Positions 23,807 to 30,055 of a stretch of 64,000 nucleotides of DNA are shown here, piece by piece. The stretch covers positions 186,001 through 250,000 of the forward strand of contig NZ_CANKXK010000003.1 in NCBI RefSeq assembly GCF_947487605.1, in the 5' to 3' direction. The stretch is from an uncultured Algibacter sp. GTDB lineage: Bacteria; Bacteroidota; Bacteroidia; Flavobacteriales; Flavobacteriaceae. The stretch's first letter is position 1; every line of letters begins with the position of its first letter. Position numbers and translations under genes: made by a program. Under the pieces are notes generated by a model, which worked only from the letters and a program-made list of their open reading frames with translations, searched no databases and was not told the DNA's origin.

Positions 23807-26461
23807 CTAAAATTTGTATGCTAATGACAAAGCTGATGAACGTCCTGTTATACCTCTAGTTAATGCATAACGATTTCCTCCTGGAGCATCACCAATTGTA
23901 GAGCCACCATTATCAATTTCTGTGATTCCTACGGTATCAAAAAGATTATTTACATTAATAGATACAGACAATCCTTTTGTAAGAGCAACTGTACCTAATA
24001 AATTAACATAAGTGTACCCTGGCATAATCAAAGCATTTCCATCAGATGCAAAAGACTTTGAAGTACCAATAATCCCTAAACCTAATGAATGTTGACGGTC
24101 TTTACCAAAAGTATATCTCGGAGAAAAATTGTATACAAAATCAGCCTGCCTTTGAGGGGTATTCCCTGTATTAGCACCTGTACCACTAGCTCTATCCTCA
24201 GTTATTTCAGCATTTGTGTACGTAATAGAACCAACAATGGAGAAACTTCCTGGATTATACAACCCTTCTAACTCTAGCCCAGAAGCTTTAAACTCATTAC
24301 CTACCGTTTGGTTAAGAGCAGCACCTGCATCTTCATCAGTATTACTTAAGAAAGCAACTAAGTTAATATATCCGTTATTTATTTTTCTTTTATAACCTAC
24401 TTCAAGCTGAGAGATTTGGTCATACTGTGTTGCAGCAGTTCCATCAAGTCCATAAGAATTTCTATCAGGAGCTCTACCTGAAGCACCTCGACTATATCTA
24501 CCAAACACAGCTGAATCATCATTTAATTTATAATTTAAACCTGCCGAGAAAGAAACAAAATTGTACTCATCATTTACAATTTGATTTTGATTTGGGTTTC
24601 TAACAGGTACAGAAGTTTCAATATCTTCTATAACACCGTTACCATTGACATCGTAATTTTGAGGTGCAGCAGACCCAAAAGAAGCAATAGTTCCATCTAC
24701 ATCAACGTTTTCAAATCTAATACTACCATCAAAATTTAAATTTTCTGTAATTTTTGCATCAATACCTAAATATGGAGAATTTATTGTGTGTACCGTATTA
24801 TATTTATTATTACAACAGTTTCCCCATTTTGGGTTACCATACGCGAATTGACCACCTCTAGAGAAACCATCAATATCAACTAATCTGGCGTTATCACCTT
24901 TAACTTCAGATAAAAAAGATGTCCAGTTCCAGCCTGTTTTAGTTTTTTGTGAGGCAAAAAAGTAACCAGCAGTTGCAGATACATTATCACCTAATTTTTT
25001 TGAAATTTTAAAATCATTAACAAAGCTTCCCATATCTTCAATGGTCACATCAAACATGTGTAATATTTGTAATAACCCATTATCAGGATTGTAAGCCTCT
25101 CTAGCTCCATCAGCATATACAAGACCTCCAGTAGCGGTTGCAGGAATATAACCTCTAACTTCTGCTTCTATATCTGCAGTAGCACCAAAACCAGCTGTAA
25201 AAGGGCCTGCCCATTCACCAGTTCTTGAAGCAGTTCTACCTTTGTTAAATACTTTCCATCCATCCCCTAAGTCAAAAGAGAATTCTAAACCTATAGCTTT
25301 TACTATTGGGTTATTACCAGTTCTAATATCACCTGTTCTTCTGTTACCATCTAAAGCACTTACACCTGCATTTTCTTGTAAAAATGCTGAATGCTGAGAA
25401 TCATTATTAATATCATAACCTGGTAAATCTGTAAAAGTTGGATCAGAATCAGAACCTTCTACTAAAGTTGGACCAGGCAAATACATTGCAGATCTATCAT
25501 TTAAAAACTTAAAATAAGTACGAATGTATCCTGAATTAAAACGCTTAGTAAAGTTTGCCTTAAGTTGCCCACCTTGATTAGCATTATACCCTGCTGCTTT
25601 TGGACCTTCACCAGACCTCATAAATCCTCCTATATGATAAGATATTCCATTAGCTAATGGCGTACCATACTCAAAGTCTATTCTGTTAGTTTGGTAATCT
25701 AAACCAAATGTTGTTGAAACAGAACCACCCTCTGTAGCTCCAGTTTTACTAATAACATTAATAATACCTGCAGGACCATTTGATGTTTGAGTGGATGCTG
25801 AACCACCTCTTATAGATTCAACTCTACCAATATTAGAATCTATTCTTAACCAGTTATCAGAATTACCAAAAGATGTGTCTCCAAATAAATTTATTGGCAA
25901 TCCATCTTCTTGAATTTGCAAATATCTAGATCCACCAGAAGACACAGGCACACCACGTACACTATAATTACCATTACCATCACCACCAGAAGTTTCTGCA
26001 CGTATAGCAGGGATATTTCTAAAAACTTCTCCTGAGGTTCTTGGAGCAGATTGAGCTATTTGTTGTATTCCAATTGATGACACCGAAACACTAGATTCTA
26101 ATCTAGATTTTGGGTTGACTACGCCTGTTACGACTATCACATCCAATGATTGAGCATCTTCTGCCATTGTAAAATTTACTGTTACGTCGGCATCATTAAT
26201 AGTAATATTTTGTGACACTTTTGCATACCCTAAGAAGGTTGCGGATAATGTGTAAGTACCATTTTCTATGCTACTAATAGTATAGTTACCGTCAAAATCT
26301 GTAACCGCACCTTTAGATGTGCCATCTAAAATAACATTAACACCCGCCAAAGGTATTCCTGCTTGGTCTTTAACATTTCCTGATATTGATTGTGCTGCAA
26401 CAATACTTACCGAAAGTAGCATTATAATCAATAAAAATCCATTTTTTGTAATTGAATTCAT
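23807..26461 (-). CDS. TonB-dependent receptor with carboxypeptidase-regulatory-like N-domain
   Basis: An 884-aa outer-membrane receptor: signal peptide (about 1-23), CarboxypepD_reg-like domain (SISGNVKDQAGIPLAGVNVILDGTSKG, 25-110), plug domain (about 130-240, with NSNG-like TSNGPAGIINVISKTG) and a 22-strand barrel ending in ALSLAYKF. It resembles single-component receptors such as the sucrose receptor SuxA of Xanthomonas. It is not a SusC with a SusD partner, and no SusD gene is present. It heads the sucrose locus and is divergent from lacI, so it probably imports sucrose or a related sugar. Confidence 0.9.
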   Translation of the reverse strand: MNSITKNGFLLIIMLLSVSIVAAQSISGNVKDQAGIPLAGVNVILDGTSKGAVTDFDGNYTISSIENGTYTLSATFLGYAKVSQNITINDADVTVNFTMAEDAQSLDVIVVTGVVNPKSRLESSVSVSSIGIQQIAQSAPRTSGEVFRNIPAIRAETSGGDGNGNYSVRGVPVSSGGSRYLQIQEDGLPINLFGDTSFGNSDNWLRIDSNIGRVESIRGGSASTQTSNGPAGIINVISKTGATEGGSVSTTFGLDYQTNRIDFEYGTPLANGISYHIGGFMRSGEGPKAAGYNANQGGQLKANFTKRFNSGYIRTYFKFLNDRSAMYLPGPTLVEGSDSDPTFTDLPGYDINNDSQHSAFLQENAGVSALDGNRRTGDIRTGNNPIVKAIGLEFSFDLGDGWKVFNKGRTASRTGEWAGPFTAGFGATADIEAEVRGYIPATATGGLVYADGAREAYNPDNGLLQILHMFDVTIEDMGSFVNDFKISKKLGDNVSATAGYFFASQKTKTGWNWTSFLSEVKGDNARLVDIDGFSRGGQFAYGNPKWGNCCNNKYNTVHTINSPYLGIDAKITENLNFDGSIRFENVDVDGTIASFGSAAPQNYDVNGNGVIEDIETSVPVRNPNQNQIVNDEYNFVSFSAGLNYKLNDDSAVFGRYSRGASGRAPDRNSYGLDGTAATQYDQISQLEVGYKRKINNGYINLVAFLSNTDEDAGAALNQTVGNEFKASGLELEGLYNPGSFSIVGSITYTNAEITEDRASGTGANTGNTPQRQADFVYNFSPRYTFGKDRQHSLGLGIIGTSKSFASDGNALIMPGYTYVNLLGTVALTKGLSVSINVNNLFDTVGITEIDNGGSTIGDAPGGNRYALTRGITGRSSALSLAYKF

Positions 26462-26549: not shown

Positions 26550-26586
26550 ATCGAAAACGTTTTCGATTTCAACGAAAACGTTTTCG
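26550..26586. promoter_or_regulatory. Two LacI-type operator palindromes
   Basis: ATCGAAAACGTTTTCGAT at 26550-26567 is a perfect 18-bp palindrome. CGAAAACGTTTTCG at 26573-26586 is a perfect 14-bp palindrome with the same core. Their centres are 21 bp apart, about two helical turns, so two dimers would sit on the same face of DNA. A central CG in a perfect palindrome is the hallmark of LacI-family operators. The second site overlaps the expected -33 region of the lacI-type gene that begins at 26628. Confidence 0.88.
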
Positions 26587-26627
26587 ATTTGGTTTTTTTA
26601 TTATATTTAAAGAAAATAAACTGTTAT

Positions 26628-27656
26628 ATGAAACCTGTCACCTTAAAAGAAATTGCTGAACAATTAAATATATCTGTTACCACTGCATCAAAAGCTCTAA
26701 AGGACTATCCTGATGTTAGTAAAAAAACAAGAGGCTTAGTCAGGGAACTAGCAAAAACATTAAATTATAAGCCTAATACTTTTGCTGTTAATCTAAGAAC
26801 TAAAGAGTCTAAAACTATTGGCTTAGTCATTCCTGTAATTGTTCATCATTTTTTTTCGAGTGTTATTAAAGGTATTATTTCACAAGCCGAAAAAAAAGGG
26901 TATTTAGTTATTATTCTTCAATCTAACGAATCTTATGAACTAGAAAAAAAACAAATTGATTTATTATTAAGTCAACGTGTTGACGGTATTCTAATTTCAT
27001 TGGCAAACGGTACAGCGGACTTTAGTCATTTAACCGAAGTTATTTCTCAAGAGAAACCTTTAGTTATGTTTGATAAAATTGCAAAAATTGTAAAATGTTC
27101 TAAAGTTATTATTGATGACCGAAAAGCAGCTTACATGGCGACGCAACATTTAATAGATATAGGATGTAAACGAATCGCGCATTTTAGAGGTGCTCTTTTG
27201 CCTCAAAATTCTATAGATAGATTTCTTGGCTACAAAAAGGCGTTATTGGATAACAATATACCTTACGACCACTCTTTGGTGTATATATGCGAATGCGGTG
27301 ATATGAGTTTTGAAGAAGGTAAAACAAATGCACAACAATTACTAAAAGACCATGACGATGTAGACGGAATTTTTATAAATACTGATTTAGTTGCCATTGG
27401 AGCCATGACCCAGTTTAATAAACAAGGTGTTAAAATCCCTGAAGACATTAGTATTGTTGGATTTAGTAACTGGTTTATGTCTTCTGTAATATCACCTACA
27501 TTAACAACTATTGACCAACCTGGATTTAAAATGGGAAAAACAGCTTTTAAACAACTTTATAAAGAAATAAAGGCCATTAAAAATAAGAAACCGAAAGCAT
27601 CAAAAATTATTACACTTGATACTGCTTTAATAGAAAGAGAATCCACTAAAAAATAG
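26628..27656 (+). CDS. LacI family transcriptional regulator of the sucrose locus
   Basis: A 342-aa LacI protein. The start chosen is the ATG at 26628, giving MKPVTLKEIAEQLNISVTTASKALK with the helix-turn-helix at residues 4-25 and the hinge near 50-60 (LNYKPN). An upstream TTG at 26589 would add 13 unlikely residues. The effector-binding domain is of the periplasmic-binding-protein type (TIGLVIPVIVHHFFSSVIKGI...). It is divergent from the TonB receptor and next to two operator palindromes, so it probably controls the locus and itself. It ends 6 nt before the convergent queG. Confidence 0.92.
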   Translation: MKPVTLKEIAEQLNISVTTASKALKDYPDVSKKTRGLVRELAKTLNYKPNTFAVNLRTKESKTIGLVIPVIVHHFFSSVIKGIISQAEKKGYLVIILQSNESYELEKKQIDLLLSQRVDGILISLANGTADFSHLTEVISQEKPLVMFDKIAKIVKCSKVIIDDRKAAYMATQHLIDIGCKRIAHFRGALLPQNSIDRFLGYKKALLDNNIPYDHSLVYICECGDMSFEEGKTNAQQLLKDHDDVDGIFINTDLVAIGAMTQFNKQGVKIPEDISIVGFSNWFMSSVISPTLTTIDQPGFKMGKTAFKQLYKEIKAIKNKKPKASKIITLDTALIERESTKK

Positions 27657-29965: not shown

Positions 29966-30017
29966 AAAAGCAGTATTTTTAGTGTTAATGCAATTTAACA
30001 GACTTTCTAAAAAACAG

Positions 30018-30055
30018 ATATGCTAAAAAACTCAAAAAATATGCTAAAAAACTCA
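30018..30055 (-). promoter_or_regulatory. AraC-type direct-repeat operator before the haloperoxidase gene
   Basis: TGAGTTTTTTAGCATAT (minus strand) occurs twice, at 30055-30039 and 30034-30018, exactly, with a 21-bp period. Each contains TAGC. The 17-bp half-site, 4-bp gap and 21-bp period equal the araI1-araI2 layout of E. coli. The first copy overlaps the stop codon of the AraC gene; the second ends 53 nt before the haloperoxidase ATG. A TAAATTG resembling a -7 element follows. Confidence 0.65.

Follow-up and report, generated by a model that had tools for sequence, protein, structure and literature searches.

A 17-bp sequence repeated directly with a 21-bp period lies between an AraC-type regulator gene and a haloperoxidase-type gene in a 64,000-nucleotide stretch of the genome of an uncultured Algibacter sp. 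(the whole stretch is called the window). This repeat, at 30018-30055, is very probably the operator of the adjacent regulator, which would activate the haloperoxidase gene from an internal promoter in class II style. In layout and spacing the site matches the class II AraC-type pattern, and the 21-bp period has been reported elsewhere, which is why we read the repeat as an activating operator. Computation established the repeat and its conservation, showed that it accompanies the regulator, measured how far it stands from the -7 box and the start codon, and found such sites again beside paralogous regulators in either orientation; from these results we infer binding by the regulator, activation, an inducer and a transcription start. 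Activation from an internal promoter by the neighbouring regulator had been proposed in the first-pass annotation of this DNA, and as a prediction it is well supported computationally by the conservation of the site, by its absence from haloperoxidase genes without the regulator (0/5) and by the paralogous sites.

On the minus strand of the window, TGAGTTTTTTAGCATAT is present twice exactly with a 21-bp period (Table 1). The exact pair described in the first-pass annotation was thus verified, as was its overlap with a stop codon, since the distal copy opens with the TGA (30055-30053) of the AraC-type ORF. In minus-strand order, TGAGTTTTTTAGCATAT TTTT TGAGTTTTTTAGCATAT is followed by 20 nt, the box TAAATTGC, 24 nt and the haloperoxidase ATG, so that the proximal copy lies 52 nt from the haloperoxidase start. 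The exact 17-mer is found at these two places and nowhere else in the source genome (3.38 Mb, 87 contigs). When 2 mismatches were allowed, 9 further places were found in the genome, the backward control giving 3 matches, and 17-mers with at most 3 mismatches are not rare in the window (3 found versus 0.94 expected). What is unusual is the exact pair.

Table 1. Features of the regulator-haloperoxidase interval in the window and the corresponding sites at orthologous loci
Feature	Position	Strand	Remarks
AraC-type regulator gene, 299 aa	30053-30952	-	ORF; Pfam ExsA_N and HTH_18
Promoter-distal 17-bp half-site, TGAGTTTTTTAGCATAT	30039-30055	-	First copy; counterpart in 4/4 orthologues
Spacer TTTT between the half-sites, 4 nt	30035-30038	-	Period 21
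Promoter-proximal 17-bp half-site, TGAGTTTTTTAGCATAT	30018-30034	-	Occupies the expected place of the -33 element
Predicted -7 box TAAATTGC, TAnnTTGY type	29990-29997	-	20 nt behind the repeat
Predicted transcription start, 20-nt 5' leader	29985	-	Box taken as -12 to -5 (main text of PMC9723704)
Target gene, vanadium-haloperoxidase/PAP2-type, lipoprotein-like start, 442 aa	28637-29965	-	ORF; Pfam PAP2, 39.4 bits
L065 site, 17+4+17			TGAGGTTTTTAGTATAT CATT TGATATTCCTGGAACAT
L066 site, 17+4+17			TGATATTTTCAGAACAC TTTT TGAAACTATAAGATCAT
L067 site, 17+4+17			TGAGCTTTAGAGAACAT TATT TGAGTTTTTGGGAAAAT
L068 site, 17+4+17			TGAGCTTTACAGCACAT TTTT TGAGTTTTTGAGAAAAT

The regulator carries the C-terminal double helix-turn-helix domain that defines the AraC/XylS family. 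HTH_18 covers residues 211-289 (62.7 bits, Pfam cut-off 33.6, profile positions 2-80 of 80), HTH_AraC matches in two stretches (47.4 bits), and the N-terminal ExsA_N domain covers residues 48-172 (106.3 bits, cut-off 27). This N-terminal domain (PF22200, 106 bits) is shared with ExsA of Pseudomonas, from which the regulator differs in having a haloperoxidase-type gene as its predicted target. A reading by eye of the ORFs of 24-37 kb in the window revealed no type III secretion genes. Vanadium haloperoxidases bind vanadate through the motifs K-x6-RP, PSGH-type and SR-x5-H-x3-D. By reading, the target ORF has all three, as KFHYNHWRP, PSAH (A for G) and SRVYLGIHFRYD, and the top solved-structure match of its residues 241-433 is the vanadium-dependent haloperoxidase 4cit/4usz (E 1.8e-15).

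Among 397 family genomes, regulators of at least 57% identity were found in five, the source genome included. The four orthologues are 57-69% identical to the window regulator and, together with the window, represent four genera, L067 and L068 coming from the same one. The same four and none new were returned when 396 family genomes were drawn a second time, and searches of congeners in three genera found the regulator in 2/3, 1/1 and 1/3 genomes, all of them orthologues already known. The window organism has a single congener in the collection, which lacks a regulator orthologue and whose haloperoxidase relative is only a distant one (33% identity over part). In the collection of genome contigs, a scan for the repeat with a free 4-nt gap gave 0 matches, and a regulator-based search for related loci gave 20 pattern matches, 0 of them confirmed. 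The haloperoxidase gene lies downstream of the regulator in 5/5 loci, the window included: directly next to it in the window, L065 and L066, and as the third gene in L067 and L068, after a Kelch-type gene and another reading frame (430-478 aa).

The repeat stands behind the regulator stop codon in all five loci, so that 4/4 regulator orthologues have it where the window has it; a lack of conservation in relatives, which the first-pass annotation had named as a refutation of its reading, is thereby not what was found. A motif search over the five intergenic stretches, in which no repeat and no place were assumed, found the same post-regulator stretch in 5/5 at widths 28 and 34. At width 34 the shared-motif score was 197.4 versus 134.6 +/- 3.9 in 40 shuffles (maximum 144.6); at width 20 it was 119.6 versus a shuffle maximum of 104.1, the motif falling on the second half-site in L065. 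In the four orthologues alone, 46 of 68 half-site positions match at offset 21, the runner-up among the 67 offsets tried reaching 30.

The site also recurs beside more distant regulators. The paralogue set comprised 66 regulators at 64 loci (E <=1e-30), including the five haloperoxidase-type ones, and the 303 nt behind each regulator stop codon were scanned at a threshold of 12 bits. The matrix of the five sites exceeded this threshold behind 27 of the 61 other regulators, one of which (L137) is out of place. The 198 control stretches, taken upstream and from both reverse strands, exceeded it in 4 cases, including L142, where a site precedes a divergent gene. A refined matrix exceeded 12 bits behind the stop codon in 46/66, a count that is not independent because the matrix was trained on those 46; the controls gave 0/66 upstream, 0/66 reverse downstream, 1/66 reverse upstream (L142), 0/66 in-gene and 0/66 backwards. 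Of the 46, 44 were accepted, lying between -29 and +122 nt relative to the stop codon. L133_3001 (-29) and L137_3013 (+216, inside the next gene) were left out because their places do not fit, and L081, also at -29, was retained because its -7 box and NnrU gene come at the usual distance.

A training set of 39 paralogous sites, none of them from the five haloperoxidase-type loci, was taken from regulators of 31-42% identity. When the first half-site was searched for 12-60 nt away from a fixed second one, the period of 21 emerged without being imposed in 31/39 of these sites, and in 30/39 if the second-half matrix serves both halves. Applied to the orthologues, the 39-site matrix gave 33.4 bits for L067, 36.1 for L068, 13.7 for L066 and 5.3 for L065, the last of which is level with the second best of its locus, yet is in place at +15 from the stop codon.

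Overall, 44 of the 66 regulators have a site close behind the gene, 8 have one before a convergent operon and 14 have none accepted (L069, L071-L074, L075, L076, L077, L082, L106_3111, L122, L133, L134, L137). Among these 14, L076 has a 16.9-bit site at +726, before a YdhR gene; L075 and L077 have by-eye sites at +76 and +79 with a -7 box (scores 9.8 and 6.6); and L137 has a 21-bp-period repeat by eye. In L069 and L071-L074, a sister group of the window regulator, the regulator lies about 30 nt before an acyl-CoA-dehydrogenase-like gene, and a block like CTTAAAAAGCTGTACTTTTCAAA, conserved by eye, was observed upstream of the regulator in L069, L071, L073 and L074.

According to the main text of PMC9723704, where the terms "AraC" and "direct repeat" are absent, F. 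psychrophilum promoter classes SM1-SM3 belong to sigma-A and have TAnnTTTG, the flavobacterial -7 box, and class SM5 has TAnnTTGY and, in the view of its authors, is most likely served by an alternative sigma factor. Many of the paralogous sites precede boxes of the SM1-SM3 kind. Across the 44 accepted sites, a TTTG starts 24 nt after the repeat end in 28 and 25 nt after it in 5, with at most 3 at any other distance; the complete TAnnTTTG is found in 17, at +20 in 12 and at +21 in 5. The next ORF starts 50-66 nt behind the site in 36 of the 43 sites with a plus-strand next ORF and at 144-145 in L067 and L068. For L144 and L106 the automatic table listed an opposite-strand next gene and a 115-aa ORF, respectively, and sequence reading found short plus-strand ORFs nearer to the site. 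The -7-like box that the first-pass annotation placed ahead of the haloperoxidase gene is present at 29997-29990, with a correction to its type: TAAATTGC is one base shorter between TA and TTG and so fails the sigma-A TAnnTTTG. It belongs to the shorter TAnnTTGC found at +20 in 4/5 loci (window, L066, L067 and L068), which fits the TAnnTTGY of SM5; the box of L065 is TAATATTG, not TAnnTTGC.

In araI1-araI2 of the E. coli araBAD promoter, two direct 17-bp half-sites stand 4 bp apart with a period of 21, the proximal one abutting the polymerase site. The site in the window has the same 17+4+17 layout and the same period; its tandem half-sites are conserved among orthologues, and the proximal one stands at -35/-33, at a fixed distance from the predicted -7 box. 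The araI-like character suggested in the first-pass annotation therefore survives as layout and fails as sequence. TAGC, on which the sequence likeness depended, is present in each copy of the window, found in a half-site of 0/4 orthologous sites and sporadic in the paralogous ones, and the broad half-site consensus is about TGAACTTTTAAGNAAAY; homology to araI at the sequence level was therefore rejected, and the TAGC of the window is coincidental. The system also differs from E. coli AraC in that the regulator lies upstream in the same direction, not divergently, and has an ExsA_N-type regulatory domain; a scan for tandem sites in the 303 nt preceding the regulator gene, on its own strand, found a further one in 0/66.

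The kind of site is already known. According to PMC3870299, AraC-family rhamnose regulators of Bacteroides, Bacillales and Enterococcus have unique motifs that share a direct repeat of 21-bp periodicity; they have this period in common with the site in the window and differ in being predicted for rhamnose genes. In PMC12125979, a XylR-type protein of Vibrio with an AraC DNA-binding domain has a motif of two AT-rich direct repeats upstream of its targets, for which a gel shift was used to test binding, and it differs in its LacI-type sensor domain and its xylan genes. No characterised member of the present regulator branch was found in the literature searched, nor any description of this motif, which is weak evidence of absence as subscription papers were mostly not covered; the string TGAACTTTTAAG was found there in one paper only, on CRISPR genotyping.

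In the proposed mechanism, two protomers of the regulator would bind in tandem to the two 17-bp half-sites. The proximal half-site, which ends 20 nt ahead of the -7 box, would fill the -33 region, and the bound regulator would substitute for the missing -33 element and recruit RNA polymerase to the haloperoxidase gene. This would amount to class II activation as at araI1-araI2, with the haloperoxidase gene transcribed from its own internal promoter, predicted to start near 29985, when the ExsA_N-type domain receives its signal. The same regulator at the same site could instead repress the haloperoxidase gene by covering the -33 region, since a proximal half-site ending 20 nt before the -7 box could also block polymerase. 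Repression is nevertheless unlikely. By eye, no TTTG-type -33 element stands at the end of the second half-site in the consensus, as would be expected of an activator-dependent promoter, and the near-constant distance of the -7 box over unrelated targets suits contact with polymerase and suits simple blocking less well. Most characterised AraC-type proteins with tandem sites activate, which we also count against repression.

The site co-occurs with the regulator gene. Five haloperoxidase orthologues of 56-68% identity, with the regulator absent within about 1.5 kb upstream, have no accepted upstream site (0/5). The best upstream scores are 3.5 (L091), 5.5 (L092), 14.9 (L094, inside a reading frame and not accepted as a site), 4.8 (L096) and -1.8 (L098), and the five sites beside the regulator score 19.5-38.9 in leave-one-out scoring. 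L091 is a second haloperoxidase copy in G245, a genome that has the regulator elsewhere. In L095 and L102, where the haloperoxidase gene is third in the operon, no site was found immediately before it (1.4 and 1.9). In both L096 and L098, a different gene was observed on the opposite strand near the haloperoxidase gene; that of L096 is AraC-like by eye, and that of L098 is a similar relative. A degenerate pattern derived from the five sites, scanned over the five whole genomes with at most 3 mismatches, gave the five sites and one 3-mismatch match in G245, and its backward control gave 0, 1 (G254), 2 (G171), 0 and 0. These results bear on the possibility that another AraC-type protein of the source genome binds the site. 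Candidates exist, as there are 14 matches to the regulator at E <=1e-3, the regulator itself counted; the best of the others has 45.7 bits and in the HTH part only. A site present in 5/5 loci with the neighbouring regulator and 0/5 without it, together with a pattern giving one site in 4/5 genomes and one extra in the fifth, makes a different protein very unlikely.

The two half-sites of the window are identical (17/17), and those of the four orthologues agree at 10-13 of 17 positions. Recent homogenisation may be partly responsible for the exact identity. Together with the T-rich sequence, it is also what a functionless slipped-strand tandem duplication of an AT-rich 21-bp stretch would produce. 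We consider such an origin extremely improbable, as the window has two places, and 0/40 dinucleotide shuffles have any, where a non-simple sequence of at least 17 bp is repeated exactly within 50 bp, a diverged 17+4+17 repeat is retained in 4/4 orthologues, and the 39-site matrix, blind to the five haloperoxidase-type sites, ranks 30018-30055 first over both strands of the 64-kb window (24.1 bits, next 7.2). The repeat is not chance, and chance tandem duplication was rejected on the conservation of the diverged repeat in orthologues. The second of the two places in the window, 26552-26590, holds a CGAAAACGTTTTCGATTT-type palindrome twice, exactly 21 bp apart. This palindromic pair resembles a twin LacI-type operator and lies between ORF 23807-26461 (minus strand, TonB-receptor-like by eye) and ORF 26589-27656 (plus strand, LacI-like by eye).

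The position of the site relative to the regulator is not constant. Ten regulators in the automatic table have their next gene on the opposite strand, and eight of them (L109, L114, L115, L119, L121, L123, L128 and L131) form one clade (100/100). In 8/8 of this clade, a site of 12.6-34.7 bits (near the threshold, at 12.6-13.0, in three) was found on the opposite strand at a distance of 896-1342 nt from the regulator stop codon, followed by a TTTG-ending box and, 47-66 nt downstream, by a reading frame of 122 or 126 aa (MDDERASVAWSIANGGIKSGL). In L109, this frame and a rhodanese-like frame (named by eye) are consecutive and run towards the regulator. In L142 a divergent acyl-CoA-dehydrogenase-like gene is preceded by a second site. 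Beyond the 303-nt stretch that follows the first regulator, 17 places in the 64 loci (1,095,020 positions) exceed 12 bits: 8 of the convergent class, the divergent one of L142, one behind the second regulator of L123, and 7 others, of which those in L076, L106 and L143 look promoter-like and the rest look doubtful, some of them like chance. The convergent and divergent cases tie the module to the target promoter and not to the 3' end of the regulator gene, and on these placements we rejected, and give hardly any credence to, an element acting in RNA, as the regulator 3' end or as a terminator or attenuator between the genes, even though the repeat starts at the regulator stop codon in the window and in L068.

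Genomes outside the training set gave the same picture. Of 395 genomes of the class, 28 have a relative at E <=1e-25; 27 loci were scanned, 26 new ones and L016 (L149 and L015, used before, were left out, and for six of the matches listed there was no locus). Scores of 22.7-28.2 bits were reached by sites 0-21 nt behind the regulators of L146, L148, L150 (equal to the overlapping L171) and L166, which belong to other families, and of L156 and L172, which belong to the family of the window. L151 reaches 8.1 bits in the same layout, and none of the remaining loci exceeds 8.1. Three control values were high: 28.2 bits in-gene for L156/L172, where the short match let the control stretch overlap the site itself; 17.5 bits upstream for L169; and 23.9 bits upstream of the second regulator of L150/L171, which is the site behind the first regulator. 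L156 (613-1809) and L172 are identical copies 8.6 kb apart in one genome. The DNA-binding domain of L156 is 58% identical to that of the window regulator and is fused to an alpha/beta-hydrolase domain, with no ExsA_N, and an operator-type site lies 12 nt behind the gene. L156 thus retains the site despite a swapped sensor domain, and the operator therefore accompanies the DNA-binding domain. L150/L171 (G763:C52), from another family of the class, has two regulators in tandem and, after them, a haloperoxidase relative (36.7% identity); the site lies between the two regulators, and none was found before the haloperoxidase relative.

Among the genes that come first after the sites, at least 10 groups without BLAST kinship are represented: acyl-CoA-dehydrogenase-like, NnrU, OsmC, YdhR, cupin, DUF2461, Kelch, haloperoxidase, MMPL-like (by eye), and unassigned secreted and small proteins. 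In the regulator tree, the five haloperoxidase-type regulators form one clade (100/100), and elsewhere close neighbours have differing first genes. In L124 and L138, the gene after OsmC is NnrU-like, judged by the likeness of its start, so that the differences in target are partly due to loss or gain of the first gene. The first ORFs of L117, L118, L127, L129 and L144 were observed to be about 47-84 aa long with a similar C-terminal part like SKEDFALTNEDLKIDAFELNEFLY; the two tested, those of L117 and L129, gave no Pfam match, and in L129 the short ORF is followed by an acyl-CoA-dehydrogenase-like gene (by eye).

With these results, a repeat noticed by eye becomes a defined predicted operator for a branch of regulators, and half-sites, -7 box and transcription start are predicted at base level for a flavobacterial haloperoxidase gene. 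The matrix can be used to read the likely targets of many unannotated regulators from genomes. It is possible, though we put it forward only tentatively, that a large branch of ExsA_N-type AraC regulators, in the family of the window and in others of its class, acts as local switches with three fixed parts, the regulator, the 17+4+17 operator and the promoter. These would stand before genes that vary (acyl-CoA-dehydrogenase-like, OsmC, NnrU, YdhR, cupin, haloperoxidase and a small protein next to a rhodanese-like one), with operator and promoter kept as a rigid unit while the target and even the sensor domain change, and the haloperoxidase branch would have shifted to an SM5-type promoter. If this were true, the recurring pool of targets would suggest a common type of inducer, for example reactive or oxidised organic compounds.
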